From: Porticoccaceae bacterium
GTDB taxonomy: Bacteria > Pseudomonadota > Gammaproteobacteria > Pseudomonadales > Porticoccaceae
Assembly: GCA_023228865.1 (NCBI GenBank)
Contig: JALOAH010000113.1
Coordinates: 1-10,883, forward strand
Reading direction: 5' to 3'
Length of the DNA stretch: 10,883 bases
The notes under the pieces were generated by a model. It did not search any database and was not told the origin of the DNA. It saw only the letters and a list, made by a program, of their open reading frames with translations. Position 1 is the first letter of the stretch; every line of letters begins with the position of its first letter. A program made the position numbers and the translations under genes. This document shows positions 1-10,883 of this stretch, one piece after another.

Positions 1-114
1 AGCCCTCGCCACTTTGGTCACCATCTGGCACAGGCTGCATCGTCCAAAAAAGCCCGGCTCCGCACTCTTGGTGCCGTGCTTGTGGCCGCAGGGCTGGCAG
101 AGCCATTTAATCAT
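1..114 (-). CDS. small zinc-ribbon protein, partial (3' end outside window)
   Basis: The first 38 codons of a gene that runs off the left edge. The product starts MIKWLCQPCGHKHG and has two CxxC pairs (Cys6/Cys9 and Cys26/Cys29) about 16 residues apart, the usual spacing of a small zinc ribbon, so it probably binds zinc and perhaps nucleic acid or a protein partner. The ATG at 112-114 overlaps the TAA of the upstream 75-residue gene and has a GGAGG-type ribosome site about 9 bases before it. An ATG at 104-106 in another frame gives a Cys-poor product and is less convincing. The function is unknown. It is the last visible gene of the leftward operon. Confidence 0.6.
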   Translation of the reverse strand, partial: MIKWLCQPCGHKHGTKSAEPGFFGRCSLCQMVTKVARA

Positions 115-334
115 TCGCTGCATCCTCCGCCCGCATCTCCTTCCACCGATTCAGCGTATCGATGGCCTCGTCAATGTCCTGGTCCAGTGTCTTGATGCTC
201 TGGCCAGCACGCAATAGCTTTTTGATAGCGTGCTGCTGAGCAGGGTGAGCGATCCCGTAAACAGAAAATATACGATACGGGTCAATCCGCACCCCTCCAA
301 ACATAAATCTGTAGTGCTTTCCGCTGTCGGTCAT
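107..334 (-). CDS. small conserved-type phage protein, 75 aa, unknown function
   Basis: A 75-residue, mainly helical soluble protein with no signal peptide or membrane segment. The central part (about residues 18-66, with DPYRIFSVYGI and a later DQDIDEAIDTLNRW) looks like small hypothetical proteins I recall from phage early regions, but I know no function for them. The ATG overlaps the TGA of the cytosine methyltransferase gene (ATGA, 331-334), and GGAG lies 8 bases upstream, so translation is probably coupled to the methyltransferase. Composition matches its neighbours. No catalytic motif is visible. Confidence 0.75.
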   Translation of the reverse strand: MTDSGKHYRFMFGGVRIDPYRIFSVYGIAHPAQQHAIKKLLRAGQSIKTLDQDIDEAIDTLNRWKEMRAEDAAND

Positions 335-1254
335 GCCATGATCTCCATAAAAGACCCTACGAACTCCGCCGCCTGGATCGGGTTGATAGCGTTACCGTAA
401 CCGCGCAATCGTCCCACTCGATTGGATACCCCATGAGCCAGCGGGAATGATCCGGGTCTAACTGGCCGCCACTTTCCATCCCGGCAGAGGAGCCAGTCAG
501 CATCTCGCCAGTGGCCGTTAGTCGGGCCGGGCCTGATAACATCGCAAAGTCGTTCAGATTCGAGCCGTGGCGAGTCTTGCCCATTGCTCGTTTCGCCTGA
601 CCGCCGCCCGTTGAATCCGATGTTTGAGGTGTTGGCCAGCCCGAAAACATCGCCACATGGTTCAAACTCACCGAAACTTTGCGCCCGTCCGGCGTCATCC
701 CCGTCGCGCTCAAGCCCTCGAACGACTGGCTGCCTTGGCTGTTGCCTACCGTTGGCGTCGGCCACCCAGTAATTGCGATCTCTGATGTGCGGCGCACCGA
801 CCCCCGCAGACGGGAACGGGATACTCCCGAAGGCGTAACCCATGGCTTCCAAGTCAGCGTGTACAAGGTCGATCCAAGCATCGACAGCCTTGCTTCCAAC
901 CTGCTCGCCAAAAACGACTGGAGGTCTTTGCTGCTGGATGAGCCACTGGAATGCAGGCCACAGGTGCCGCTCGTCATCAAACCCTGCTCCTTTGCCTGCC
1001 GCGCTGAAAGGCTGGCATGGGCATGATCCTGTCCATACTGGTTTGTCGTCTGGCCATCCGGCGTGTCGCAACGCGAGACTCCATCCTCCGATTCCGGCGA
1101 AGAAGTGGCATTGGGTATATCCAGCAAGGTCATTTGGTTGAACATCCTCGATACTCCTTTCGTCAACGTCGCCGGGCGCAATATGTCCGCCAGCTATCAG
1201 GTTTCGCAGCCACTGAGCGGCGAACGGGTCAATCTCGTTGTAGTAGGCGGTCAT
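331..1254 (-). CDS. phage DNA (cytosine-5-)methyltransferase
   Basis: A 307-residue C5-cytosine methyltransferase that would transfer a methyl group from S-adenosylmethionine to cytosine in duplex DNA. Motif I (SAM binding) is FFAGIGGWSLAL, residues 51-62. Motif IV is GSCPCQPFS, residues 76-84, with catalytic Cys80. Motif VI is GEQV at 117-120, in place of the usual ENV. Motif VIII is HIRDRNYWVA at 156-165, and motif X is YGNAINP at 286-292. Residues 166-250 are variable and hold the target-recognition part, so the recognition site cannot be predicted. The ATG at 1254 overlaps the TGA of the upstream zinc-ribbon gene and has GGAGG 8 bases upstream; a longer in-frame opening reaches 1488 but would lack this site and overlap that gene. 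No restriction enzyme is beside it, so it most likely shields phage DNA. A second long frame lies within it. Confidence 0.93.
   Translation of the reverse strand: MTAYYNEIDPFAAQWLRNLIAGGHIAPGDVDERSIEDVQPNDLAGYTQCHFFAGIGGWSLALRHAGWPDDKPVWTGSCPCQPFSAAGKGAGFDDERHLWPAFQWLIQQQRPPVVFGEQVGSKAVDAWIDLVHADLEAMGYAFGSIPFPSAGVGAPHIRDRNYWVADANGRQQPRQPVVRGLERDGDDAGRAQSFGEFEPCGDVFGLANTSNIGFNGRRSGETSNGQDSPRLESERLCDVIRPGPTNGHWRDADWLLCRDGKWRPVRPGSFPLAHGVSNRVGRLRGYGNAINPIQAAEFVGSFMEIMA
357..1145 (-). CDS. overlapping same-strand frame inside the cytosine methyltransferase gene (candidate overprinted gene)
   Basis: A 262-codon open frame lies wholly inside the methyltransferase gene, on the same strand in another frame. 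Its ATG (1143-1145) is preceded at 8 bases by AAAGGAG (1154-1160), a ribosome site as good as any in the window. The product begins MFNQMTLLDIPN, is rich in Ser, Thr, Gly and Arg, holds two GWPTP motifs (residues 127-131 and 169-173) and ends with RWLMGYPIEWDDC and a basic tail. I recall hypothetical proteins in phages and prophages with very similar openings, SARQAK segments and RWLMG.P.EWDDC endings, but could not check them. Where the first frame has the conserved PCQPFSAAGKG, this frame reads ASLSARQAKEQG, so some conservation may be imposed by the enzyme frame. It is either a translated overlapping gene or a long chance opening; I slightly favour translation because of the ribosome site. 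Confidence 0.5.
   Translation of the reverse strand: MFNQMTLLDIPNATSSPESEDGVSRCDTPDGQTTNQYGQDHAHASLSARQAKEQGLMTSGTCGLHSSGSSSSKDLQSFLASRLEARLSMLGSTLYTLTWKPWVTPSGVSRSRLRGSVRRTSEIAITGWPTPTVGNSQGSQSFEGLSATGMTPDGRKVSVSLNHVAMFSGWPTPQTSDSTGGGQAKRAMGKTRHGSNLNDFAMLSGPARLTATGEMLTGSSAGMESGGQLDPDHSRWLMGYPIEWDDCAVTVTLSTRSRRRSS
1154..1160 (-). promoter_or_regulatory. internal Shine-Dalgarno site within the methyltransferase gene
   Basis: Minus-strand AAAGGAG, 8 bases before the ATG at 1143-1145, inside methyltransferase codons 32-34. It uses the AGG arginine codon in the enzyme frame. Its position fits initiation of the overlapping 262-codon frame and nothing else nearby. Confidence 0.5.
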
Positions 1255-1538
1255 GCCCCCGCCCTCCAGCTCATAGTCTGAATCCGGTATGCTCTCGCCA
1301 TAAAATCCCTCGGCACCCAGTGGTGAGGGCAGAGCTCTACCGGCTCTGGCTCTGACTCCGGAAGCCGCTCTGCTACAGGGTTGTGGCTCGTGCGCTCGCA
1401 GGACTCGCATTTGTAGACTTTCGCCACACCTTTTGCGCGCTGGCGGCTGCCCTGATACCGAAGCCCCCGATGGTCGCAGTGGTTGCACAGCAGCGGCTCG
1501 AGAGGGTTGGCTTTTTTCGGTGGCGGCTTCCTTTTCAC
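1251..1538 (-). CDS. small zinc-ribbon protein, 95 aa
   Basis: A 95-residue basic protein with a CxxC pair at Cys18/Cys21 (LLCNHC) and a second at Cys44/Cys47 (YKCESC), separated by a basic stretch. This is the pattern of a compact four-Cys zinc ribbon, often nucleic-acid binding. The N-terminus is Lys/Pro rich (KRKPPPKKA). I chose the GTG at 1536-1538 because it overlaps the TGA of the upstream 47-residue gene (GTGA) and GGAGG stands 7 bases before it; longer in-frame openings reach 1811 but would cover two neighbouring genes. Its own TGA overlaps the ATG of the cytosine methyltransferase. Function unknown; the tight linkage suggests it is made together with the methyltransferase, which does not prove that they interact. 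Confidence 0.72.
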   Translation of the reverse strand: MKRKPPPKKANPLEPLLCNHCDHRGLRYQGSRQRAKGVAKVYKCESCERTSHNPVAERLPESEPEPVELCPHHWVPRDFMARAYRIQTMSWRAGA

Positions 1539-1678
1539 TTCATCCCCTCCAAAATTGCCCTCAATTTGGTGATCACTTTCAACTGGTGACCCATCCATGC
1601 GTCGCCGCCCTTCTCCGGGCACTTTAGCCGCATTGCCGCTTGCAAGGCTTCTTCCACGGTTTTGCGTTGCGCCATCAT
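1535..1678 (-). CDS. tiny phage protein, 47 aa
   Basis: A 47-residue product beginning MMAQRKTVEEALQAAMRL and ending LRAILEGMK, probably two short helices around a Gly-Gly-Asp-Ala-Trp turn. No recognisable domain. It is supported by position: the first ATG (1676-1678) overlaps the upstream TGA as ATGA, AAGGAG lies a few bases upstream, and its TGA overlaps the GTG of the next gene. It fills what would otherwise be an unexplained gap between two genes. A second ATG directly after the first could also be used. Confidence 0.65.
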   Translation of the reverse strand: MMAQRKTVEEALQAAMRLKCPEKGGDAWMGHQLKVITKLRAILEGMK

Positions 1679-2046
1679 GCTCTGCTCCTTTTGCCATTCT
1701 CAATCGCAACCCGAACCATCCGCTCCAGCCCAGCGCGCGCAACGGCGTCCTGGTTGGCATCCGACATTTCCCGCGACATGACATACCGCACCGACGACCG
1801 ATCAGCACCAATGCGCTCGGCGATCTCGCTGATCGTCAGGCCCGACTCGGCCAAGTGCTTGATGCTCTCCCGGCAAAGGCGGCGCTTGCTGAACTTGCCA
1901 TTCCACGCCTTGAGCCCGAGCCGGCCAGCCTTGCGGTGTACGGCTTGCTCCGTGCGGCCAATGGCTATCGCGATCTGGCGCACCGGCTTGTCGCCGTACC
2001 AGCGGCGCAGGTGCGCTACTTGGTGGTTTGTCCATTGTTTAGCCAC
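1675..2046 (-). CDS. DNA-binding protein with two helix-turn-helix-like segments
   Basis: A 123-residue basic protein. Residues about 4-45 (QWTNHQVAHLRRWYGDKPV then RQIAIAIGRTEQAVHRKAGRLGL) look like a Myb/SANT- or GcrA-type helix-turn-helix, with Trp residues in the first helix and a typical IA..IGRTE.AV turn. Residues about 62-90 (LAESGLTISEIAERIGADRS) form a second, resolvase/AsnC-like helix-turn-helix. It is therefore probably a phage transcription factor, but target and partner are unknown. The GTG at 2044-2046 overlaps the upstream gene by 8 bases and has GGAGG about 10 bases before it; an ATG at 2151 would overlap the whole end of that gene. Its TGA overlaps the next ATG. Confidence 0.75.
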   Translation of the reverse strand: MAKQWTNHQVAHLRRWYGDKPVRQIAIAIGRTEQAVHRKAGRLGLKAWNGKFSKRRLCRESIKHLAESGLTISEIAERIGADRSSVRYVMSREMSDANQDAVARAGLERMVRVAIENGKRSRA

Positions 2047-2218
2047 GGCTTGCTTTCCTCCCCCGCTCCCGCTGCAACTGCCGCAGTGCGTCCGATGGCT
2101 GGTATTCATTGCGCGCCACCCATGGCGGCAGGATCTCGATAACGCCGCCACGCGCCAGGTATTCGGCTGTGTCGGTGGCTATTTTTTCGCGGTCGGTCTG
2201 GCGCAGTTGTGGGTTCAT
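2039..2218 (-). CDS. small phage protein, 59 aa
   Basis: A 59-residue product beginning MNPQLRQTDREKIATDTAEY and ending in an Arg-rich tail (RQLQRERGRKASRG). The middle reads LARGGVIEILPPWVARNEY. No family is named with confidence; it resembles small hypothetical proteins of phage early operons. The ATG (2216-2218) overlaps the upstream TGA as ATGA, continuing the coupled chain, and its TAA lies within the first codons of the helix-turn-helix gene. The frame is unbroken and fills the interval exactly. Confidence 0.65.
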   Translation of the reverse strand: MNPQLRQTDREKIATDTAEYLARGGVIEILPPWVARNEYQPSDALRQLQRERGRKASRG

Positions 2219-2421
2219 TTCCGTGCATCCTCTTTTGACAGGTAAAGTGCTTGCTCGGGCGCAAATCCGGCCCGGATATGGGCCTCATACTTTTGCCGGG
2301 TCATAGCGGCTTGAAGGTCCATCAGCTCAGTGATTGCCTGCAAGTTATCCGCCAGACTGTTCCTTGCCGCCTCGACGGCGAACTTGATTTTCTGCTGGTC
2401 CGTTAGTGGGGGTGTTTTCAC
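2215..2421 (-). CDS. small phage protein, 68 aa, unknown function
   Basis: A 68-residue, acidic-to-neutral, strongly helical protein beginning MKTPPLTDQQKIKFAVEAAR. The C-terminal half (AHIRAGFAPEQALYLSKED) has the look of small phage proteins of unknown function. The start is a GTG (2419-2421) overlapping the TGA of the preceding gene as GTGA, with a G-rich ribosome site (GGGGGAG) about 7 bases before it. No membrane segment or catalytic motif can be seen. Confidence 0.7.
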   Translation of the reverse strand: MKTPPLTDQQKIKFAVEAARNSLADNLQAITELMDLQAAMTRQKYEAHIRAGFAPEQALYLSKEDARK

Positions 2422-2582
2422 GCCAACTCCCCCCGCTCAATGCGCTGCACGGTGCGCAGGGACACGCCGTTCTTTTCGGCAAGCGCCGGGTTTGCCAGCA
2501 ATGCCACCTGGCGCTCCAGATCGGTTCGGCGCTTGATGGCCCGCCTTATCGTGATGATGGTTTCTTTGGGTGTTTTTTTCAT
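2418..2582 (-). CDS. tiny helix-turn-helix-like protein, 54 aa
   Basis: A 54-residue basic protein beginning MKKTPKETIITIRRAIKRR. Residues about 28-51 (LLANPALAEKNGVSLRTVQR) read as a helix-turn-helix, with ALAEKNGVS as turn and LRTVQRIE as recognition helix. A role in binding phage or host promoters is possible, but the protein is barely longer than the motif. Its ATG overlaps the TGA of the adenine methyltransferase gene (ATGA, 2579-2582) and its TGA overlaps the next GTG. The ribosome site is weak (GGA about 10 bases upstream), so it may rely on coupling to the methyltransferase. Confidence 0.65.
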   Translation of the reverse strand: MKKTPKETIITIRRAIKRRTDLERQVALLANPALAEKNGVSLRTVQRIERGELA

Positions 2583-3214
2583 TTTATGGATCCTAGAAGG
2601 TCGATTTGTTTTGTCTCGGCGTCAATTCTTACTTTGGCTGCGGCAAAGTAATCGGCGTCAAGTTCGATGCCGGTAAAGTCGCAACCGAAGTAATGGGCAG
2701 CGATGGCGCTAGATCCGCTGCCGAGGTGCGTATCAAGAATGCGGTCGCCCGGCTTGGCGTATTTGTCGAGTATCCATTGATAGAGCTTTACGGGCTTTTG
2801 GGTGGGGTGGATTCTGTTTTTGTTTGCTGCGGCATTGTAATCGTATTTTTTAGAGCTGGACTTAAAGCTAGTCCACGCCATTTCATACTGCGCAAAAGTC
2901 ACATCTTCTGAAAATCCTTTATCCCACAACAGCCAGCATGGAGACGGGTATAAAAAGTCAGTCATGTAATTACCACCCCATATAATCTGGTTTTTGCTGA
3001 CTCGCTCCAGCTCTAAAAAGTAATCTTCATCCGGGATGCTTTTATCTTCGCCGGCAAACTTTTTGTAATTGCTTTTCGCGTCGCCTTTCCTGCGCCCCAT
3101 GCTTACATTTATACCTATCCCATACGGCGGATCGACGCAAGCCAGATCAAACGCCTTATCGGGGCAATCCCGCAGGAAGTCCATGCAGTCCATGTTGAGC
3201 AGTTCGATAGCCAC
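2579..3214 (-). CDS. DNA adenine-N6 methyltransferase, beta-class order
   Basis: A 211-residue DNA methyltransferase of the N6-adenine/N4-cytosine type. The catalytic motif IV DPPYG is at residues 28-32, near the N-terminus. HPTQKP at 136-141 and the SAM-binding motif DTHLGSGSSAIAA at 161-173 follow, then GIELDADYF. This order (IV before I) is the beta class. DPPY makes N6-adenine the more likely target, but N4-cytosine is not excluded. The usual opening ..IELLNMDCMDFL.. begins at the GTG at 3212-3214, with GAGGTG upstream; longer in-frame openings would overlap the upstream gene. The target-recognition region between the motifs is clearly AT-richer than the ends. No cognate nuclease is adjacent, so anti-restriction or regulation is likely. 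Confidence 0.92.
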   Translation of the reverse strand: MAIELLNMDCMDFLRDCPDKAFDLACVDPPYGIGINVSMGRRKGDAKSNYKKFAGEDKSIPDEDYFLELERVSKNQIIWGGNYMTDFLYPSPCWLLWDKGFSEDVTFAQYEMAWTSFKSSSKKYDYNAAANKNRIHPTQKPVKLYQWILDKYAKPGDRILDTHLGSGSSAIAAHYFGCDFTGIELDADYFAAAKVRIDAETKQIDLLGSIK

Positions 3215-3216
3215 AA

Positions 3217-3258
3217 TCACCACCTCATCGGCATAACAATTACGGATTGCATGATCAT
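3217..3258 (-). CDS. possible 13-codon leader ORF before the adenine methyltransferase
   Basis: An ATG (3256-3258) overlaps the upstream TGA as ATGA and has GGAGG 7 bases before it, yet its frame closes after 13 codons (MIMQSVIVMPMRW). The TGA lies two bases before the GTG chosen for the methyltransferase. It could be a leader peptide that carries ribosomes to that GTG, or merely a relic of an older start. Confidence 0.3.
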   Translation of the reverse strand: MIMQSVIVMPMRW

Positions 3259-3530
3259 GATTGCACCTCCAGCGCCAGCAGCTCCTGAATCCGCCCCTGC
3301 ATAATCGCAATCCGGCGCTGTGATTCGGCCCGCTCTTGCTCGATGCTGGCTTTTAGGGATTCGACCATGGCGGCGCGGGGGTCGCTGAAAATGACGTGCA
3401 GTTCTTCGGTTTCGCCAACCCGAACATATTCATGGGACGGGTTATCCGGGCTCTCTGAAAAATGGATAAAGCTGTACTTGGTATTAAAATACAGGTAAAC
3501 CTTGCCCTTAAACTCTGTTGGTACATTCAT
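3255..3530 (-). CDS. small phage protein with C-terminal coiled coil, 91 aa
   Basis: A 91-residue protein. Residues 1-55 look beta-rich (KGKVYLYFNTKYSFIHFSES); residues about 56-88 are a charged, heptad-like helix (MVESLKASIEQERAESQRRI) that could be a coiled coil. No family is recognised. The ATG at 3528-3530 is chosen because GGAG lies 8 bases upstream; an earlier in-frame opening at 3596 would start inside the promoter. It is the first gene after that promoter, so it heads the left half of the operon. Composition is like that of the neighbours. Confidence 0.72.
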   Translation of the reverse strand: MNVPTEFKGKVYLYFNTKYSFIHFSESPDNPSHEYVRVGETEELHVIFSDPRAAMVESLKASIEQERAESQRRIAIMQGRIQELLALEVQS

Positions 3531-3554
3531 TTTTGCTTCTCCGTTTTTTGGTTT

Positions 3555-3570
3555 GGTGTTGATCGACACC
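3555..3570. promoter_or_regulatory. near-palindromic operator-like site
   Basis: GGTGTTGATCGACACC matches its own reverse complement at 14 of 16 positions, centred on GATC, with TTT and AAA close to its ends. It lies just downstream of the -10 box of the leftward promoter at 3574-3602, about where transcription would begin. No run of T follows on the minus strand, so it is not an intrinsic terminator. A repressor site is the natural reading. The half-site recurs in the main control region (minus-strand GGTGTTGA at 10011-10018). Confidence 0.45.
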
Positions 3571-3573
3571 CAA

Positions 3574-3602
3574 ACTATAGTCACCAATCGCGCCAATGTC
3601 TA
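3574..3602 (-). promoter_or_regulatory. internal leftward promoter
   Basis: On the minus strand, TAGACA (3597-3602) and TATAGT (3574-3579) each match the sigma70 consensus at 5 of 6 bases with a spacer of exactly 17. This is one of the few real intergenic gaps of the operon, between the 73-residue gene and the 91-residue gene. Transcription would begin near 3566, about 36 bases before the ATG at 3530. Confidence 0.6.
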
Positions 3603-3613
3603 ATATCAATTAG

Positions 3614-3835
3614 CTATATCCGGCGCAGTTTATATAACCTAACCGCCTCTTCCCGCACTTGGCCGCGTATGTGGTCTGGCAGCGACGCTAGGGCTGCTTT
3701 GGTGTCGGGAGCGGCTAGGCACTGGCAGGCCGTGCGGTATATCTCCAGGCGCGCCCATGACTTCACCGCGTCGCTGATGCCTTCGCGCTGGCCGCCGGCG
3801 TACAGTTTCAGTTGCTCTGATGGTTTGACAGCCAT
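3614..3835 (-). CDS. small phage protein, 73 aa, unknown function
   Basis: A 73-residue helical protein beginning MAVKPSEQLKLYAGGQREG, with a later PDHIRGQVREEAVRLYKLRR. The last 40 residues resemble small phage proteins of about 70 residues in which a short helix precedes P..IR..V...I..L; I know no function for these. The ATG at 3833-3835 overlaps the end of the VRR-NUC gene by 28 bases, and GAGG lies about 10 bases upstream. It is the last gene before the internal promoter and is probably the end of the first segment of the operon. Confidence 0.7.
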   Translation of the reverse strand: MAVKPSEQLKLYAGGQREGISDAVKSWARLEIYRTACQCLAAPDTKAALASLPDHIRGQVREEAVRLYKLRRI

Positions 3836-4221
3836 GTCTCGAATGCCTCTTTTGCTGCCACCCAGCCCAGCGCAACACACACAAACGCGCCCGCGCCCTG
3901 TGCCGCTTCCAGGTAATCTATCTGGCCGTCCTGCCATTTACTGGCGGTATGATCGCGGCGTTTCAGCTCACAGACAAACGCCGGGCAACCTGGCACCACA
4001 ACGTCTGCCGCGCCAGGGGTCATGCCTTCGGCCTTCTGACGCTGCGTCTGCTGGTGAGTGCGCTTGCCTTCGTTGCGCGGATGGATGGCAATCAGGCCGT
4101 AGCTTTTCGGGTATTGCAACCGCAGCCAGTTAAAAAACGTAATCTGCTCGGCGGACTCTGGCGGGCATTTGCCGCGCCATGCCGTGTCTCCGAATACATT
4201 TAAAAAACTCGGAAAAATCAT
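3808..4221 (-). CDS. VRR-NUC domain nuclease
   Basis: A 137-residue VRR-NUC protein, a PD-(D/E)XK-type nuclease family found free-standing in phages and as the nuclease part of FAN1. The expected residues are in order: Glu25 in SAEQ, the HPRNEGK segment at 47-53, GMTPGAADVVVP at 66-77 with Asp73, CELK at 84-87 (Glu85, Lys87), and Gln100 in WQDGQ. Metal-dependent cleavage of branched or flapped DNA during replication or recombination is the likely role. The ATG at 4219-4221 overlaps the TGA of the GIY-YIG gene (ATGA) and has GGAG 9 bases upstream; another ATG at 4236 lacks a good site. The 28-base overlap with the next gene suggests coupling. The start seems to have been reshaped by insertion of the GIY-YIG gene. 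Confidence 0.88.
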   Translation of the reverse strand: MIFPSFLNVFGDTAWRGKCPPESAEQITFFNWLRLQYPKSYGLIAIHPRNEGKRTHQQTQRQKAEGMTPGAADVVVPGCPAFVCELKRRDHTASKWQDGQIDYLEAAQGAGAFVCVALGWVAAKEAFETWLSNHQSN

Positions 4222-4940
4222 ACGGAAATTCTCCATCCGGATACTGTCGCCCTGATTCTATTAACCATCTGGTTAACATTTCCCTGGGATAGATTGTATT
4301 TTTTATACAGCTCATATTGTGTTCCAATAAAAATAGATCCGTCCTTGTGTATAAACTTCCTGACGGTATGGTCATACGCCGGGTTTTTTGACCCTTGATT
4401 CATTCTCGACCTAAGCTCTACTGACTCCTTTGTTGATAGGGCTTTTCTTATTTTCTCTGCCCTGCTTGCCCGGTATTCATCACTAGATTTATCCCATGCT
4501 GCTTTTAAGGAATCTGACAGTTTTTTCCTGCTCTCATCGCTTGGCTTCCGCCCTAGACACGGATGGGTCCATCCCTCTTCTGCCATCCGCTCTCGGATTA
4601 TCCTGACCATTGACTCAGACATCTTTCTTTTGAATTCTTCCGTGTGTTTTAACCCAGCCGCTCCGGATTCTCCGCCATCGCTGAGGTTGCAAAGAGTGTC
4701 CCTCCCAATCGAGAGAATTACATCTCGCTCTTTCTCACATGCCTCGCTGCTAGTCATGCTTCTGAAAAGTATTTCGCACGTTCTACCGTATTTGTTGTTT
4801 ATGTTGTGCCAGTGGGGGTTTCTGGATGTGTTGCTGTGGACCCTTGTTCCCGTTCCTTTCCCCACATAAAAAACCTCGCCCTCTTTTTCTCCGCTCTTGT
4901 ATCTGTGCACATAAACGTAATATCTTTTTTCGTCCTTCAT
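4218..4940 (-). CDS. GIY-YIG homing endonuclease with NUMOD-type C-terminus
   Basis: A 240-residue free-standing homing endonuclease. The N-terminus holds a variant GIY-YIG domain: YYVYVHR at 7-13, VFYVGKGTGTRV at 23-34, and a likely catalytic Glu around 67-71 (SEACEKE). The linker has two NUMOD3-like segments (GLKHTEEFKRKMSES and GRKPSDESRKKLSDSLK). The C-terminal FIGTQYELYKKYNLSQGNV and SGWRI are typical of NUMOD1/IENR1 DNA-binding modules. It would make a double-strand break or nick in related phages lacking the gene and so spread itself. The start at 4940 has GGAG 6 bases upstream. It sits between helicase and VRR-NUC genes, is less GC-rich than either flank, and is not expected to be needed for phage growth. 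Confidence 0.9.
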   Translation of the reverse strand: MKDEKRYYVYVHRYKSGEKEGEVFYVGKGTGTRVHSNTSRNPHWHNINNKYGRTCEILFRSMTSSEACEKERDVILSIGRDTLCNLSDGGESGAAGLKHTEEFKRKMSESMVRIIRERMAEEGWTHPCLGRKPSDESRKKLSDSLKAAWDKSSDEYRASRAEKIRKALSTKESVELRSRMNQGSKNPAYDHTVRKFIHKDGSIFIGTQYELYKKYNLSQGNVNQMVNRIRATVSGWRISV

Positions 4941-4998
4941 TTTCCGCTCCACCAATACCTAGTGCCACAATCATACCATGCCACTCGGGGAATTTCAT
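4941..4998 (-). other. abandoned start region between helicase and GIY-YIG genes
   Basis: The helicase TGA overlaps an ATG (4996-4998) in the ATGA manner seen across this operon, but that frame (MKFPEWHGMIV...) soon runs through the GIY-YIG gene in another frame and looks non-coding there. The first residues MKFPEW resemble MIFPSF at the start of the VRR-NUC protein on the other side of the GIY-YIG gene. I read it as the original VRR-NUC start, cut off by the insertion. Confidence 0.4.
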
Positions 4999-6881
4999 TG
5001 CTCTGGCATCCTGTCGGCGGGGCGGTTGTATCCGTGGACGCGGTAAAAGTCCGTCCCGCGCCGCCTGGCATAGGTTATTGTTTCTGGCATGGCGCCCTTG
5101 TCAATATGTTCTAAAAACATATCAATGTCCGGCGCAACGTGGCCACGGTATACCGCACGGCTCAGGGCCTCCCAATCCGCCACGGCTTGCGTGCTGTTCG
5201 CGCCAGGGGTGTACCAGATCGGGAAGGTGCGGTATTCGGTGGTGTAGTCGATACGCAGTGTATCGTTGCCGGACTGGCTAACGCCCTGCGCCAGCGTCCA
5301 GTTCAATACCGGATCTGTGCTGATGGCGTATGGGTCTTTTTTTACCCTGGTGAATTCGCGCACCAGCTTGGCATGAGGATCAACAATCTCACACTTGCAC
5401 GCGCAACAATACCTCGCCGCAATGTCATTATCGGCTTGGCACTCCGGGCACTCCTTGCTGGTCCAGCGGTAGTCGCACCGATCATACATGCCCATGCCGG
5501 CGCGCACCTGCCCTGTGCATCGCCGCCCATGGTGGCTGGGCAGGGGGCCATGATCAGTTTCGATAGGCTGGCCATTTAGGTCAAGGAAATAGCCGTCTTC
5601 GCTATACTCGAATTCGTCATCATTTTTTCGCGCCGAGAACTCGTTCTTAAATCCGCACTCCGGGCATTTTACGTCAAGCATGGCGCTACCGCTCGACGCG
5701 CCCTTTACGCGGATTCGCGGGGCGAACAGGTCGCTGTGCAAGTTGAACCTTTCTATATTCTCCCCATAATCAAGCAAAATAGCCTCTGGCTTTTCACTTT
5801 TTGCAATTGCTTCAATATCACCGGCAACCGAATCACTAATAAGCCGCACACCCCTCCATAATATTTGCTGAAACAAGCCGGGTGACTCGATTGCTCGCAT
5901 CACAGCGATAATAGAAACATGCGGGAAATCAACGCCCGTGGTAAGGGTGCCAACGCTTACTAAATACTTAAATTTTTTGTTTTCAAAATCTTTAATAAGT
6001 CCGTCTCGTTCGCTACCCATGTTTACATCGCCGCCAAGCATTCTGCTGTTCTCTGGCGGAAGGCTTTCCATAATCTCTTTTGCGTGCTGAACTGTTGCAG
6101 CAAATATCATTACTCCAGAGTGCCCGCGCGAATAACCAACAATATCGCTAACTATGTTGTATGTTAGCCTTCCCCTGCCCTCGAAAACCCTTTCAACATC
6201 GGAGTCGTCAAATTTTCCGTTCTGCTTAAGTTTTATGCTACTTGTGTCGTAGCTTTCAACATGGCTCGGGTCTGCGTGCATTGGCGTCAGGAAGCCAAGG
6301 TCAACAAGCTCTCTCGTTGTTATTCGGTAAAGCAAATTGTTGTAATATGGGTTTATTGCCTGGTCTTCAGGAACAAAAGAGCCATCTACATCATATGAAT
6401 AAATAAACCCTGTTTTAAATCTGTATGGACTTCCTGTCATCCCGATAACTCGCAACCTTTGGTTTTTCGCCCGCATAGCAGAAATAATGGCTTTTACTTG
6501 CTCTGTTGTTCTGTGGGCCTCATCAACCAAAACGGCACCAAACTGGTCGCCAAACCGAGATATGCTATTTGCCACTGTGCCCGGTGTTGCAAAAACACAC
6601 GGGTGCCGAAGGCATTTAGACCCGGAGGACGCGCTGAAGATGCTGGCTGGGCTGCCGGTAGCTAGGTACTTTTTCGCGTTACCGGTGCAAAGCTCTTTTG
6701 TTGGCTGCAAGCAAAGAACTCTTTTCCCCGTTGATTCATAAACCCACTTTGCTATTGCCGCCATTATGTGCGACTTCCCGGCGCCTCCTGATAACTCCAG
6801 CAGCCCAGGCATTAGGCTTTTTTTCATGTGTGCAATGGCGGCGTCAACAGCTTCTTGTTGGTAAAACCTAAGGCGACTCAT
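4995..6881 (-). CDS. DEAD/DEAH-box superfamily 2 helicase with C-terminal zinc-ribbon region
   Basis: A 628-residue ATP-dependent helicase. Motifs in order: Q-like RFYQQEA (5-11); Walker A SGGAGKSH (31-38), with GGAGKS where most have G.GKT; DEAH (120-123); TGSP (149-152); FAAT (260-263); TLTTGVDFP (312-320); and motif VI QQILWRGVRL (338-347), in which Trp replaces the usual Gly. From about residue 400 come Cys pairs (406/409, 478/481, 492/493, 495/497, with singles at 455 and 469) of one or two zinc ribbons, then an alpha/beta tail. It probably unwinds or remodels DNA in phage replication or recombination, like SSL2/UvsW-type helicases. The ATG overlaps the HNH gene's TGA. Bases 5740-6881 are much AT-richer than 4995-5740. 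Confidence 0.92.
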   Translation of the reverse strand: MSRLRFYQQEAVDAAIAHMKKSLMPGLLELSGGAGKSHIMAAIAKWVYESTGKRVLCLQPTKELCTGNAKKYLATGSPASIFSASSGSKCLRHPCVFATPGTVANSISRFGDQFGAVLVDEAHRTTEQVKAIISAMRAKNQRLRVIGMTGSPYRFKTGFIYSYDVDGSFVPEDQAINPYYNNLLYRITTRELVDLGFLTPMHADPSHVESYDTSSIKLKQNGKFDDSDVERVFEGRGRLTYNIVSDIVGYSRGHSGVMIFAATVQHAKEIMESLPPENSRMLGGDVNMGSERDGLIKDFENKKFKYLVSVGTLTTGVDFPHVSIIAVMRAIESPGLFQQILWRGVRLISDSVAGDIEAIAKSEKPEAILLDYGENIERFNLHSDLFAPRIRVKGASSGSAMLDVKCPECGFKNEFSARKNDDEFEYSEDGYFLDLNGQPIETDHGPLPSHHGRRCTGQVRAGMGMYDRCDYRWTSKECPECQADNDIAARYCCACKCEIVDPHAKLVREFTRVKKDPYAISTDPVLNWTLAQGVSQSGNDTLRIDYTTEYRTFPIWYTPGANSTQAVADWEALSRAVYRGHVAPDIDMFLEHIDKGAMPETITYARRRGTDFYRVHGYNRPADRMPEQ

Positions 6882-7501
6882 ATCAAAAACTTTCTTTTTG
6901 CGTTATTTTTTAAATTTTGTTCTGCCCAAACAGGCATTAAATTCGACAAACAATTTATTTTTTTTGGACAAGATATTCCTTCAGATAAAAGAACTGATAT
7001 TGGCGTTATGTGATCTATATGCCAGGCACCATGGTTCTCCCATCTCATTCCTTTCTCAAACTGTGATTCTATATGTGATATAAGCTCTTGCCTGGTATAG
7101 CCAAGTATTTTTTCTGTCCTGCCGTTCTTTTCTGTTTTTAAAACTCTTCGCAACGAATCCCGCATAAAACAAATAGCTTTAGATGTTTTTTTCGACCTCC
7201 ATTTAGACTCTGATTTTCTTACCGCCTCGCGGTTTTCCTTCTTCCACGTCTTTGCCCTATCTATTGTTTTTTGCCTGTTTTTTTTATACCACCTTTTTGC
7301 TCTAATAGCCGCCAATAACTTTTTTTCCTCGGCAGATACGCGAGGGATATTTTGCAAAGGCTTTTCTTCATAATGACAAGCAATACACTTTGCGTTAGAA
7401 CTCCAACGCTCAGAAATATGGTTTTTTTTGCATGGCTTGCCCGTGAAGTATCGAGCTTTACCTTTTGATAAAGATTCTTTTCGGGGAATTATTTCTTGCA
7501 T
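6878..7501 (-). CDS. HNH homing endonuclease
   Basis: A 207-residue HNH endonuclease. The N-terminal ARYFTGKPCKKNHISER followed by CIAC at 39-42 is a Cys/His finger common in phage HNH proteins. A long Lys/Arg-rich helical middle (about 60-130) should contact DNA. The HNH core is at 158-200: GAWHIDHITPIS (His161, Asp163, His164), then LSNLMPVWAEQNLKNN. It probably acts as a free-standing homing enzyme. Base composition is the lowest in the window (15 G+C in 6901-6960, 18 in 6961-7020), which suggests a foreign origin. The ATG at 7499-7501 has GGAG 8 bases upstream; a GTG at 7510 is possible. Its TGA overlaps the helicase ATG. Confidence 0.88.
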   Translation of the reverse strand: MQEIIPRKESLSKGKARYFTGKPCKKNHISERWSSNAKCIACHYEEKPLQNIPRVSAEEKKLLAAIRAKRWYKKNRQKTIDRAKTWKKENREAVRKSESKWRSKKTSKAICFMRDSLRRVLKTEKNGRTEKILGYTRQELISHIESQFEKGMRWENHGAWHIDHITPISVLLSEGISCPKKINCLSNLMPVWAEQNLKNNAKRKFLI

Positions 7502-7596
7502 TATACGCACTCCATCAAAGCGGTCATCGAAAGGGAAACAAGGCAGGCGATGATGAGTCGCTTTTCGTCTGGCCGGACTAGCCTTGATTTGACTGA
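7501..7596 (-). other. start-less open segment upstream of the HNH gene
   Basis: The 108 bases between the exonuclease and HNH genes hold no complete gene. One frame stays open for 31 codons, reads like protein (KSRLVRPDEKRLIIACLVSL...) with a hydrophobic stretch that could be a membrane helix, and its TAA overlaps the HNH ATG (TAATG). It has no upstream ATG, GTG or TTG, only ATGs close to the end. It may be a remnant of a gene disturbed by the HNH insertion, or chance. Confidence 0.25.
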
Positions 7597-7609
7597 TTAT
7601 ACGCCACGG

Positions 7610-8464
7610 TTACGAAAGCCGCCAGTATTCCGATGGTTTCCCAGTCCACGGAGCAACATCCAGCTCTGGCAATTTCTCTTTGACAATTTTGGCATAAGCA
7701 ACCGATCCGGCACGCTCAACCTTGGTCAGCTTGCGCCCCCACAAGATAGCGTTGCGCTCTTTGGCGATTTTAACCAGTTCTGCCATGACTTCTTTTTTCC
7801 GGGCCTCTGCATCATCGATGGTGGTTTTCAGTGCATCATATTCGTCAAGCAGGGACTTTGCGCCCAGGGTGTTGACTTCATAAATTGCGCCTTCAAGGTG
7901 GGCAGGGTTGTCCAGTTCTGACAGATAGCGGTTGTAAAAAGCTTCCATTTCCGGGAAATACTGACCCCACCATTCGGGGTCAAAATCTACGGTTTGCAGG
8001 TCATCACCGTGCTTGCTCCACTGATAGAAATGGGCATAGTGTCTGCCACTGCTGGCCATCTCGACTTGCATCTGTGCGTAGTAATGCGGCTGGTCAGCGG
8101 CGGCCTTGAACTCCGGCTGTGGTTTGTTCCGCAGACCAAACGGGCATTTTACTTCAACAAGCCCAAAGTACTCGATAAGGCCATCCGGCGTAGCGCCAAG
8201 CCAATCGTGCTCCGGATGGACGAAAAACCCGCACTCCTCAACGTAATGTCCGGTCTTGCCCATATAGTCCATAATTGCAAGGGGCTCGTGCAGGTGGCCG
8301 TATTCGGTGGCAATGTTGCCGGTGAACTCGGATTCAGCGCCATGATAGTCGCGCACCATTTGGCGGATCAGGTCTTCGGGGGTTTTCCATGGGTTCAGGC
8401 CAAGGGCGGCGCCCACGTTCGAGCCGGTGAGTCGTCCGCGTCTTTTTGGGGATAGGTTGGTCAT
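7610..8464 (-). CDS. YqaJ-type viral recombinase/exonuclease
   Basis: A 284-residue exonuclease of the YqaJ family (lambda-exonuclease fold), which digests one strand of duplex DNA from an end to leave ssDNA for annealing. Visible motifs: RLTGSNVGAALGLNPW at 11-26; GHLHEP at 56-61 with Glu60; GATPDGLI at 90-97 with Asp94; VEVKCP at 103-108 with Glu104 and Lys106; and HYYAQMQVEM at 127-136. Together these form the metal-binding core. The C-terminal third is helical and charged. The ATG at 8462-8464 has GGAG 7 bases upstream. It follows the ssDNA-binding and Sak4-like genes, the usual partners of such an exonuclease. Confidence 0.93.
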   Translation of the reverse strand: MTNLSPKRRGRLTGSNVGAALGLNPWKTPEDLIRQMVRDYHGAESEFTGNIATEYGHLHEPLAIMDYMGKTGHYVEECGFFVHPEHDWLGATPDGLIEYFGLVEVKCPFGLRNKPQPEFKAAADQPHYYAQMQVEMASSGRHYAHFYQWSKHGDDLQTVDFDPEWWGQYFPEMEAFYNRYLSELDNPAHLEGAIYEVNTLGAKSLLDEYDALKTTIDDAEARKKEVMAELVKIAKERNAILWGRKLTKVERAGSVAYAKIVKEKLPELDVAPWTGKPSEYWRLS

Positions 8465-8508
8465 TTTTTTACTCCGTTGATGTGGCGCGTCCTTGCGCCG
8501 GTTTTTGG

Positions 8509-9054
8509 TCAGAACGGGATGTCTTCCTCGAAATCATCAACCGGAGCAGTCTGCGGAACAGGCTTGGGCGGTACAGGCGGCGCATTCTTCGCCGGGGCCA
8601 CCGCGCTGACCCAGTTGCCCTGGATCTTCTCGCCATCCTCCTTGGTCATCTTCCACACCTGCAACTTGATTGCCATGGGCTTGCCGACCAACGCGGTCAT
8701 CAGGTCGGTGTCGTCAGGCTCCGCTTGCAGCTTGATCAGTCGCCCCCCTGCGTTGGCGTCAATCGCTGCCAGCATCCGCTTGGCCTTGTCCGCCGTGGCG
8801 GCGGGGTCTTTGTCGCGACTGGTGCCGTGGACTTTGACTTTTTGGAAAATCACACGGTTGCCATAGGCTTCGGGCCGCATGATTCGCCACTTGAGAGAGA
8901 TGTAACTGTCGCTCTCGTATTCGTCCCACTTGGCTTCCTCAATCGCTGCAATGCAGCCTGTGTTGGCTGGGATTGGCTCAAGATTTCCGCCCTCGGCTTC
9001 GTAGGTGGTTTTTGCTTCGGCCTGTTGGCCGTCGTTCATTGTCCAGAATGACAT
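8509..9054 (-). CDS. DUF669-type phage ssDNA-binding protein
   Basis: A 181-residue protein of the DUF669 type, found beside Sak4-like ATPases and exonucleases in many phages and thought to bind ssDNA. Typical features: MSFWTMNDGQ at the start, LEPIPANTGCIAAIEEAKWD at 25-44, YISLKWRIM at 51-59, and KAKRMLAAIDANAGG at 90-104. A Pro-rich linker (159-171) leads to an acidic tail ending DDFEEDIPF, very like the tail by which bacterial SSB recruits partners; that supports an SSB-like role. The ATG at 9054 lies 3 bases after the Sak4-like stop, with GAGG 8 bases upstream. It presumably coats the strand exposed by the exonuclease. Composition is GC-rich like the flanks. Confidence 0.87.
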   Translation of the reverse strand: MSFWTMNDGQQAEAKTTYEAEGGNLEPIPANTGCIAAIEEAKWDEYESDSYISLKWRIMRPEAYGNRVIFQKVKVHGTSRDKDPAATADKAKRMLAAIDANAGGRLIKLQAEPDDTDLMTALVGKPMAIKLQVWKMTKEDGEKIQGNWVSAVAPAKNAPPVPPKPVPQTAPVDDFEEDIPF

Positions 9055-9057
9055 GGT

Positions 9058-9939
9058 TTATTCCTCTTCGGTGGCTTCGGATGTATCGGATGATACGGGT
9101 GGTGGTTGTGTTGCGTTGAAAAACGGAATGTACGGCAGGATTGGATTTTCGCCCTCGGCAACGTCAAGCTCCTGCGGAATGCGATAACGGTTTTTAGCGT
9201 CAACAAAACCGATAGTGCCTTCGCTGGCGGTCACCAGGAGGCGCTCGCCGGTACTGGTCATTTTTCCATAGGCCTTGACGTTGCCCTTCTTGTCCTTGTC
9301 GCTTCCCATCACGAATTCGCGTGACTTAAGATACAGCACGGCATCGCTGGTGGCGATGTACACCCGGCGACTGGCTTCGTGCATGTCCATCGTCCACGTC
9401 GCGTAGGCTTCCACGTCCGGGCGGTTCTTGACCTTGGCAATGCCGCTGTGGGCCAGGAACACGACCGCAATCCCTCGCCGCCGCAAATGCTCACACGCAC
9501 TGCGCACCTTGGCGTGGAGGTTTGCAACAGCAAGATAGCCCTTACCGTAGCCGCCAGCGGCCTCGCCAATGTTGGTGGCTTCCGGGTTCCCGTCAAACTC
9601 GATCACCTCAGACTCAAACAACATATTCAGCGTGGTTACCGCGTCAATGACTACAGTCTTATAGGGGTGGTCCTGCGTTGCCAGTTCGCGCAACTGTTCA
9701 AGCAGTATTTCGCTCGGCTTGGCGTTGCGTTTCTGGTTTGCGCTGGGCAGTTCCGGGAAGAAGGCTGGCTGCTTATCCTCCGGCCACGTCTCGAACACGC
9801 TGGTAGCGTTCTCGGCCTGAACAAAAATAGGGTTTGGGAACGTCGCCGCCAGCGTTGATTTCCCAACTCCCGGAAAACCTACGATTGTGATTACCGGCGC
9901 TTGTGGGTGGGCCTTTTTGGCCTGATCAAGGTATGACAT
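9058..9939 (-). CDS. Sak4-like RecA-fold ATPase (phage recombination)
   Basis: A 293-residue P-loop ATPase of the phage nucleotide-binding AAA_24/Sak4 kind, a RecA-like single-strand annealing or strand-exchange protein. Walker A is GFPGVGKST at 21-29, Walker B is KTVVIDAVT at 94-102, and VVFLAHSGI at 159-167 is the RecA-like sensor strand. The C-terminal LVTASEGTIGFVDAKNRYRIP is shared with this family, and the tail is acidic (EATEEE). Its place as the first gene of the leftward operon, before the DUF669 and exonuclease genes, fits the module. The ATG at 9937-9939 has GGAG 9 bases upstream. A KaiC-like reading is possible, but the context favours recombination. Confidence 0.88.
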   Translation of the reverse strand: MSYLDQAKKAHPQAPVITIVGFPGVGKSTLAATFPNPIFVQAENATSVFETWPEDKQPAFFPELPSANQKRNAKPSEILLEQLRELATQDHPYKTVVIDAVTTLNMLFESEVIEFDGNPEATNIGEAAGGYGKGYLAVANLHAKVRSACEHLRRRGIAVVFLAHSGIAKVKNRPDVEAYATWTMDMHEASRRVYIATSDAVLYLKSREFVMGSDKDKKGNVKAYGKMTSTGERLLVTASEGTIGFVDAKNRYRIPQELDVAEGENPILPYIPFFNATQPPPVSSDTSEATEEE

Positions 9940-9979
9940 GTTTTGGTGCTCCGCATTGGGTTGTTGTCGTTTGTGACCG

Positions 9980-10008
9980 TTGCAAGATTAGACCGTAAAG
10001 GTTATGCT
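9980..10008 (+). promoter_or_regulatory. rightward promoter for the Cro-like gene
   Basis: TTGCAA (9980-9985) and TATGCT (10003-10008) are 17 bases apart and each match the sigma70 consensus at 4 of 6 positions. Transcription would begin near 10015, before the ATG at 10044. It shares nearly all its DNA with the opposed leftward promoter. Confidence 0.45.
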
Positions 10009-10014
10009 TGTCAA
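9987..10014 (-). promoter_or_regulatory. main leftward promoter of the recombination operon
   Basis: On the minus strand, TTGACA (10009-10014) is a perfect -35 box and TCTAAT (9987-9992) a 5-of-6 -10 box, 16 bases apart. Transcription would start near 9980 and run into the Sak4-like gene at 9939. The -35 lies within GGTGTTGACA, which shares GGTGTTGA with the palindrome at 3555-3570. A direct repeat GACCGT (9975-9980, 9991-9996) lies over the -10 region and may also be an operator. Confidence 0.65.
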
Positions 10015-10043
10015 CACCCAACATCAACATCATGAGGCATAAA

Positions 10044-10214
10044 ATGACAACGCAAGAAGCAAAAGATTTTTTTGGCGGCATAAAGGAGCTTGCTGAAGCT
10101 CTTGGGATATGGCCTCACAATATTAGCCGGTGGGGCAAATTTCCGCCCATGGCGAGGCAGTACGAAATTGAGATAAAAACAAAAGGCGCTCTCAAGTCAG
10201 AAAGCAATAAATAG
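10044..10214 (+). CDS. Cro/YdaS-like transcriptional regulator
   Basis: A 56-residue helix-turn-helix protein of the Cro/YdaS type. FFGGIKELAEALGIWPHNIS (9-28) holds the turn and recognition helix, and RWGKFPPMARQYEIEIKTKGAL (29-50) is the typical continuation (W....P..R...IE..T.GAL). It would bind operators in the divergent promoter region and control both arms. The ATG at 10044-10046 is chosen because GAGG lies about 7 bases upstream; an in-frame ATG at 10032 is less well placed. No CI-like repressor gene lies on the opposite side, where it usually would. The primase-polymerase gene follows 29 bases after its stop. Confidence 0.85.
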   Translation: MTTQEAKDFFGGIKELAEALGIWPHNISRWGKFPPMARQYEIEIKTKGALKSESNK

Positions 10215-10243
10215 TCACCTGATTGCCTTTAGAGGGCTAAAAA

Positions 10244-10883
10244 ATGAGCGCATGGGTAGACTATGTAGAAGCAGGGTTCCGCGTTTTTGGAATCCACGGT
10301 GTAGATAAAAACGGACGGTGTGAATGCGGGAATCCAGACTGCAAGGCGCTGTACAAGCACCCAAGGATCAGCAACTGGCAATCAGTCCCGCACTGGTCAG
10401 AAGATCAGCTCGAAACCTTCGAGCAGTTGGGCCATTTTAAAACCGGGTTCGGCGTCTTGTGCGCCGGGCATTTGATCATTGACGTGGACGCCCGCAACGG
10501 CGGCGTGGAGTCGTTCGCCAGGCTATGCAAGGACGTGCCAGAGGCGGCCGGCGCTGTGTTTGTGGTCAACACCGGGTCAGGCGGTGGCAGCCAACACCAT
10601 TACTTTTCGTTGCCGGAGCCCATGGCGCTAGTGCAGCACCTGCCACAATATCCCGGCATCGATTTAAAAACGTCAGGGTATGTCATAGGCGCCGGATCAT
10701 TGCACGCCAGCGGCGCGGACTATGAGCGGGCGCGGGGGTATCCACAGGACATCTCGGTGGCGCCTGCTGCGCTGGTGGATTTGCTGCGGAAGCCAGACAG
10801 GCACCGCGTTGACCTTGACGGGGCGGCGGTTGACGTGTCGGAGTCGGACATTCTCGACTTGCTGCACTACATATCCCCAGATC
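10244..10883 (+). CDS. bifunctional DNA primase/polymerase, N-terminal part (3' end outside window)
   Basis: The first 213 codons of a primase-polymerase of the archaeo-eukaryotic primase (Prim-Pol) superfamily, cut by the window edge. It begins MSAWVDYVEAGFRVFGIHG, the usual opening. The catalytic metal-binding motif DVD is at 80-82 (LIIDVDARNGG). The nucleotide-binding segment TGSGGGSQHHYFSLP is at 110-124, with the SGGG..H pattern, and GIDLKTSGYVIGAGS at 138-152 is the third hallmark. Cys26, Cys28 and Cys33 near the start may bind metal. It should make primers and extend them at the phage origin; such proteins often carry a helicase domain downstream, which cannot be seen here. AGAGGG lies about 8 bases before the ATG at 10244-10246. 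Confidence 0.88.
   Translation, partial: MSAWVDYVEAGFRVFGIHGVDKNGRCECGNPDCKALYKHPRISNWQSVPHWSEDQLETFEQLGHFKTGFGVLCAGHLIIDVDARNGGVESFARLCKDVPEAAGAVFVVNTGSGGGSQHHYFSLPEPMALVQHLPQYPGIDLKTSGYVIGAGSLHASGADYERARGYPQDISVAPAALVDLLRKPDRHRVDLDGAAVDVSESDILDLLHYISPD

Follow-up and report, generated by a model that had tools for sequence, protein, structure and literature searches.

Why a gene for a C5 cytosine methyltransferase (MTase) should contain a second long open reading frame (ORF) is the question raised by contig JALOAH010000113.1 of a Porticoccaceae bacterium (assembly GCA_023228865.1), whose positions 1 to 10,883 were analyzed as a whole and are called the window here. The preliminary description had reported 262 codons running from an ATG at 1145 to a stop at 357, in a different frame of the MTase strand, with AAAGGAG 8 bases ahead of the ATG; both were confirmed directly, the AAAGGAG at 1160-1154. 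We call the MTase frame alpha and the overlapping frame, which is +1 relative to it, beta. The beta stop codon lies at 359-357, and the product ends in RWLMGYPIEWDDC. Beta had been thought either a conserved overlapping gene or an artefact that has seeded databases with false proteins. We conclude that beta is a genuine overlapping gene under strong purifying selection. Moreover, the locus very likely encodes a single C5 MTase as two polypeptides, alpha and beta, that would assemble into an active heterodimer.

The beta frame is far longer than codon-shuffled controls. When MTase codons were permuted with the protein and its codon usage kept, the null mean for the window was 131 open codons, against 278 observed in the +1 frame (P about 0.007). 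Relatives were collected as 80 viral loci fetched by the MTase protein alone (the best 80 of at least 589; the MTase-only set) and 80 fetched by the beta protein (the best 80 of 138; the beta set), with some contigs common to both, and four annotated phage loci brought the total to 164. These sets, like the bacterial set and the further viral set below, are the nearest relatives of each query and give no share among all phage C5 MTases. Both frames were present in 164 of 164 loci, and beta was always +1. The +1 frame averaged 297 open codons in the MTase-only set (null, 141; 75/80 loci individually at P < 0.05) and 301 in the beta set (null, 162; 68/80). In the MTase-only set, the +2 frame (59 versus 71) and the three antisense frames (151 versus 139, 117 versus 116, and 89 versus 101) stayed near the null. 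Frequent stops among close homologues were not seen, as 70 of the 80 MTase-only loci had no stop in the aligned beta interval and the other 10 had one. In the nine of these ten that were inspected, the open run restarts 5 bases into the interval, and thus the stop lies upstream of the conserved core. The MTase and beta hit lists also supplied 12 phage loci that are more distant; a beta profile matched 10 of them, eight at E <= 3e-15 and two near E 7e-4, and missed two (L169 and L171).

The start signals of beta are conserved as well. A non-redundant set of 139 MTases below 90% identity was prepared, 136 of which align at the beta start site. ATG occupied the start column in 124 of these relatives (null, 51.7; standard deviation, 5.0), a Shine-Dalgarno (SD)-like 4-mer was found in 97 (null, 23.8), and the two occurred together in 96 (null, 9.3; maximum of 18 in 200 permutations). 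The MTase-only subset gave 61/65, 46/65, and 45/65, with nulls of 26.9, 12.4, and 5.0, respectively. Alpha, in turn, makes unusual codon choices at these columns: Asp is encoded by GAT in 126 of 134 cases at the ATG column (1,115/2,977 elsewhere), and Arg by AGG in 64 of 134 cases at the SD column (240/3,608 elsewhere). None of the three results that the preliminary description would have taken as a refutation was obtained.

Constraint on the beta frame is visible at sites where alpha is free to change. We measured third-base identity at 4-fold degenerate alpha codons coding for the same amino acid. Identity was 0.346 (alpha codons 1-36) and 0.356 (codons 300-307) outside beta, and across beta it was 0.367 (codons 37-81), 0.777 (82-165), 0.512 (166-240), and 0.760 (241-299). 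Individual sites illustrate the difference, such as a beta Trp opposite alpha Leu135 (pair identity 1.00 versus 0.50), a beta Leu opposite Ala273 (1.00 versus 0.59), and a beta Pro opposite Ser277 (0.99 versus 0.28). Independent pairs, which were ungapped DNA matches with each locus used once, then indicated the frame under selection. Alpha identity exceeded beta identity in 64/64 pairs over codons 1-36 and in 67/67 over codons 37-81, and the unconserved beginning of beta looks like a cost of starting upstream of the motif I to IV region of alpha. Both frames were constrained over codons 82-165 (alpha above beta in 58/68 pairs) and codons 241-299 (alpha above beta in 50/66, the reverse in 15, and one tie). 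In the variable region, beta identity exceeded alpha identity in 58 of 58 independent pairs, and in 28 of 28 within the MTase-only set. For beta, amino acid identity across 974 pairs of variable modules was 0.845, compared with 0.495 for alpha and 0.502 for the unused frame, and none of the matches was out of phase. A Paenibacillus-phage-type family repeats the pattern (alpha, 0.465; beta, 0.846; 6/6 independent pairs), in a test that used 17 of the 21 loci entered, four having been dropped for lack of the motif VIII pattern. The frame selected in the variable region is that of beta, so beta probably encodes target recognition. Conservation of the overlapping gene is therefore well supported by its open lengths, start signals, constraint, and frame of selection.

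How the motifs of a C5 MTase are divided between the frames suggests what beta does. Motif IV and motif X were each found in 137 of 139 alphas and a motif IX-like segment in none (0/139); among betas, the motif IX-like segment was found in 136/137 with a loose pattern and 129/137 with a strict one, and motif X in none (0/137). The preliminary description had found it odd that the end of beta resembles the LMGYP segment of C5 MTases and had placed that segment on the same bases as the alpha motif X. The resemblance stands and very probably reflects real homology, since single-chain relatives have the same type of segment at the motif IX position, but the bases are not shared: those of LMGYP read AHGVS in the MTase frame, and YGNAINP (399-379) lies just downstream, such that the motifs adjoin. 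The most likely and simplest account is one enzyme in two polypeptides, in which alpha would catalyze and beta would recognize the target and complete the fold. Alpha would supply the S-adenosylmethionine-binding and catalytic motifs together with motif X. Beta would initiate at its own ribosome site and supply modules of target-recognition domain (TRD) type and motif IX. Both proteins would be made, bind each other, and be needed for activity, with beta setting the target sequence. The account builds on four computed features, namely, the conserved beta coding frame with its start signals, the division of motifs between frames, selection on the variable region that follows beta, and beta-type segments at the TRD and motif IX position of single-chain relatives. 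That beta acts with the MTase had already been suggested; its conservation is now well supported, and its function is what we infer from these features.

Single-chain relatives bear on this account. In them, beta-type modules and a motif IX-like segment lie in frame between motifs VIII and X, with WPTP-type modules at the TRD position. One such protein, P0130, has the beta-type segment in frame with the catalytic motifs and a predicted fold like that of M.HhaI. In lineages other than that of the window, the beta-type segment is either joined to the catalytic motifs in a single chain or encoded by a staggered second ORF. Another candidate single-chain MTase, L207, proved to be an ORF without catalytic motifs and was not counted.

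Several points weigh against the two-polypeptide account. An AlphaFold2 model of beta alone was poor (predicted local distance difference test score, 57; predicted template modeling score, 0.27), was confident only around residues 71-120, and matched no known fold. With the window-type beta profile, the single-chain L205 is matched at E 2e-5, whereas L211 (E 3.5), Papez (E 0.34), and Gudmit (no hit) are not matched; the link to most single-chain enzymes runs through a second beta family. L205 and L211 also keep the N-terminal half of beta open in +1, which a pure TRD and motif IX role leaves unexplained. In the viral set retrieved with the single-chain alignment and described below, the loose motif IX pattern was found in alpha in 3 of 80 loci and in neither frame in 11. 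Finally, a passage of PMC3404938 places the predicted TRD of M.EcoHK31I, a two-subunit MTase, in the large subunit.

Other readings of the overlap must explain the same data. The reading that composition and MTase conservation yield the open frame as a by-product is almost certainly wrong. A guanine-plus-cytosine (GC) content of about 0.59 does favor long open frames, as even the permuted null for the window is substantial, and in a per-column permutation test all other frames also exceed the null, so that test alone is not decisive. The per-column test is inflated by relatedness (the +2 and antisense frames and even the nonoverlapping codons 1-36 exceed the null), and the case is therefore built on how long the frames stay open, the start signals, the 4-fold sites, and the independent pairs. 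Open lengths, start signals, constraint at MTase-synonymous sites, and frame of selection all argue against an artefact, and the last three contradict the suggestion that such frames have merely seeded databases. Moreover, the frame also occurs at low GC (0.47 in the L166 and L170 genes and 0.34 at locus L208) and is absent from a canonical NgoMIV-type MTase, whose longest +1 run is 73 codons. Ribosomal frameshifting from alpha into the C-terminal half of beta, giving a fused chain with no separate initiation, seems highly improbable. Natural in-frame fusions do show that the alpha catalytic half and the beta C-terminal half can work in that order within one chain, but the conserved ATG and SD and the conserved N-domain of beta point to separate initiation.

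The two remaining alternatives accept beta as a real protein, and we consider each unlikely. Beta might have an independent job, for instance, against host restriction or defences, with its motif IX resemblance incidental; action against host defences had been raised in the preliminary description. An independent job would suit its N-domain (residues 46-129), for which no counterpart exists inside single-chain MTases and whose frame remains open in +1 alongside these. It fits poorly with the in-frame beta-type modules and motif IX-like segment of the single-chain relatives, with the lack of motif IX in alpha, and with bacterial loci from the beta search (best 80 of 275), where beta overlapped a +1 MTase in 80/80, although free-standing betas of other types may have escaped that search. 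Alternatively, alpha might hold the TRD and beta add only motif IX, as the PMC3404938 passage predicts for M.EcoHK31I and as the alpha frame kept open through the variable region would allow. Identity in that region, however, is high in beta and no higher in alpha than in the unused frame, beta exceeds alpha in every independent pair, and single-chain relatives have WPTP-type modules where a TRD would be expected. The two-polypeptide account thus remains the one we prefer.

The window can be compared with known two-subunit MTases. The gene for the small subunit of M.EcoHK31I is nested in that for the large one in another frame, and the window-type beta likewise overlaps alpha in +1 at all 164 viral and phage loci and all 80 bacterial ones. 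In the passages cited here, M.EcoHK31I (YGGCCR) is described as having motifs I-VIII and X in the large subunit and motif IX in the small polypeptide (PMC3404938) and is called naturally split (PMC3439449), both papers citing Lee, Kam and Shaw 1995. Window-type alphas, with catalytic motifs and X but without IX, and betas, with IX, follow that published motif layout. Unlike M.EcoHK31I, the window locus is a phage-type orphan, with no restriction enzyme recognized by Pfam in ten neighboring frames, and unlike the prediction in the cited passage, its family has the variable region selected in beta. We file the window system as a putative variant of the M.EcoHK31I kind that differs in where the specificity region is selected. 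M.AquI (CYCGRG), as described in PMC3404938, is a two-polypeptide C5 MTase whose small subunit carries motif X, a layout shared by the staggered relatives L189, L203, L206, and L208, whereas the window has motif X in alpha. Compared with single-chain enzymes of the M.HhaI and M.NgoMIV type, the catalytic motifs are the same and P0130 is modeled as M.HhaI-like, but motif IX is absent from the window-type catalytic chain and M.NgoMIV has no long +1 frame. Relative to the passages cited, the motif split is already published, and the breadth in phages, the beta-frame selection of the specificity region, and the natural fusions are new.

The arrangement is broad. The beta search gave 6,772 database proteins at E <= 0.001 among 7,993 candidates scored, and beta matched 200 of 50,697 phage records and 13 of 72,556 plasmid records. 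In five plasmid records (H147-H151), the match is confined to alpha residues 1 to 141-169 (61-64% identity); no gene is listed in four of these records, and the five are apparently truncated alpha genes. When viral contigs were searched with the single-chain alignment (the best 80 of at least 568 kept), 80/80 loci had a +1 frame that stays open for 150 codons or more across motifs IV-VIII, and 66/80 had motif IX in +1 by the loose pattern; a stricter pattern placed it in +1 in 55/80, in alpha in 1/80, and in neither in 24/80. After 18 loci were excluded beforehand as truncated, atypical, or near-duplicate, the other 62 showed a 4-fold identity of 0.318 ahead of motif IV, 0.372 to 0.566 from IV to VIII, 0.502 across the variable part, 0.607 around motif X, and 0.344 beyond it.

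Annotation usually overlooks beta. Both frames are annotated in phage K1ind1 (ORF28, a "putative Mte8-like protein," inside ORF29 and +1 to it), Xanthomonas phage PhiXhv-5, and Paenibacillus phage BN12, and the N15 annotation lists one of the two. Beta has no Pfam family match; it matches phrog_1008 and phrog_31772, both labeled "DNA methyltransferase," and these and the Mte8-like protein of K1ind1 are the beta family, known by name only, with no function or subunit relation stated. The passage of PMC5582158 that mentions an Mte8-like protein gives no function. We lean toward the view that the C5 MTases of phages and prophages include a broad class, perhaps the dominant one, of dual-coded heterodimers with specificity in the usually omitted second frame. 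In these, the variable half of the annotated MTase would be largely a passenger, and specificity cassettes would recombine as DNA modules read in the beta frame. If so, annotation describes only half of the enzyme for many phage C5 MTases, alpha on its own should show no activity, and inferring specificity from the annotated chain means reading the wrong frame. An odd enzyme described in 1995 would become a widespread architecture, and its natural nested, staggered, and single-chain versions would allow study of the origin and resolution of long gene overlaps.

Some relatives have rearranged frames. In Gordonia phage Gudmit (L168:982-2367), the MTase frame has ADTSG-type modules opposite beta LPTP modules; after a Cys-rich stretch, the MTase frame itself encodes LPTP modules and a WMMMLPAGW segment, as though the C-terminal half of beta had been brought into alpha by a frame change. 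An (AG)17 repeat lies in the MTase at L346:3017-3050; beyond it, the alpha motif X part is in +1 and the beta motif IX part in +2, such that one slip would switch both frames together, and either phase variation or an assembly error may be responsible. In L304 and L307, the alpha frame ends with the motif IX-like segment, and L304 has motif X in +2, another frame arrangement of the same parts. At L089:1501-2433, the beta frame ends in alpha-type sequence (LMGVSGRVGRLRGYGKAIVPQ), either a frame merger or a sequencing error.

Table 1. Features of the overlapping MTase locus in the window
Feature	Positions	Strand	Evidence
Alpha, C5 cytosine MTase frame, 307 aa, catalytic motifs and motif X	331..1254	-	PF00145 E 3.4e-12; phrog_363 E 2.3e-91
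Beta, overlapping frame, +1 relative to alpha, 262 aa, proposed TRD and motif IX subunit	357..1145	-	phrog_1008 E 4.8e-31; phrog_31772 E 4.5e-30; constraint and start signals
Beta Shine-Dalgarno, AAAGGAG	1154..1160	-	SD-like 4-mer at same place in 97/136 relatives (null, 23.8)
Beta start codon, ATG	1143..1145	-	ATG in 124/136 relatives (null, 51.7)
Beta residues 1-45, presumably translated, unconserved tail opposite alpha codons 37-81	1011..1145	-	4-fold identity 0.367, as outside the overlap; alpha identity > beta in 67/67 pairs
Conserved N-domain of beta (residues 46-129), lying over alpha motifs IV to VIII, with constraint on both frames	759..1010	-	4-fold identity 0.777
Variable WPTP-type modules, proposed target-recognition region, beta frame selected	535..759	-	Beta identity > alpha in 58/58 independent pairs
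Motif IX-like segment QLDPDHSRWLMGYPIEW in beta, residues 228-244	414..464	-	Pattern in 136/137 betas, 0/139 alphas
Motif X (YGNAINP) in alpha	379..399	-	Pattern in 137/139 alphas, 0/137 betas

A GTG at 1488, offered as the MTase start by the ORF list, was set aside, as homology begins at 1254. Neighboring frames at 2579-3310 and 4218-4955 include one for an N6/N4 DNA methylase (PF01555, E 3.7e-16) and one that is GIY-YIG-like and has a NUMOD3 motif (E 2e-5); a frame at 6878-7510 looks HNH-like by eye only and has no Pfam match. When the whole window was compared with phage records by megablast, 34 matched, and the ten best listed, Edwardsiella phage eiAU and Salmonella phage epsilon15 among them, fall only in the MTase region (385-1254) at about 77-79% identity, as dual coding would favor.
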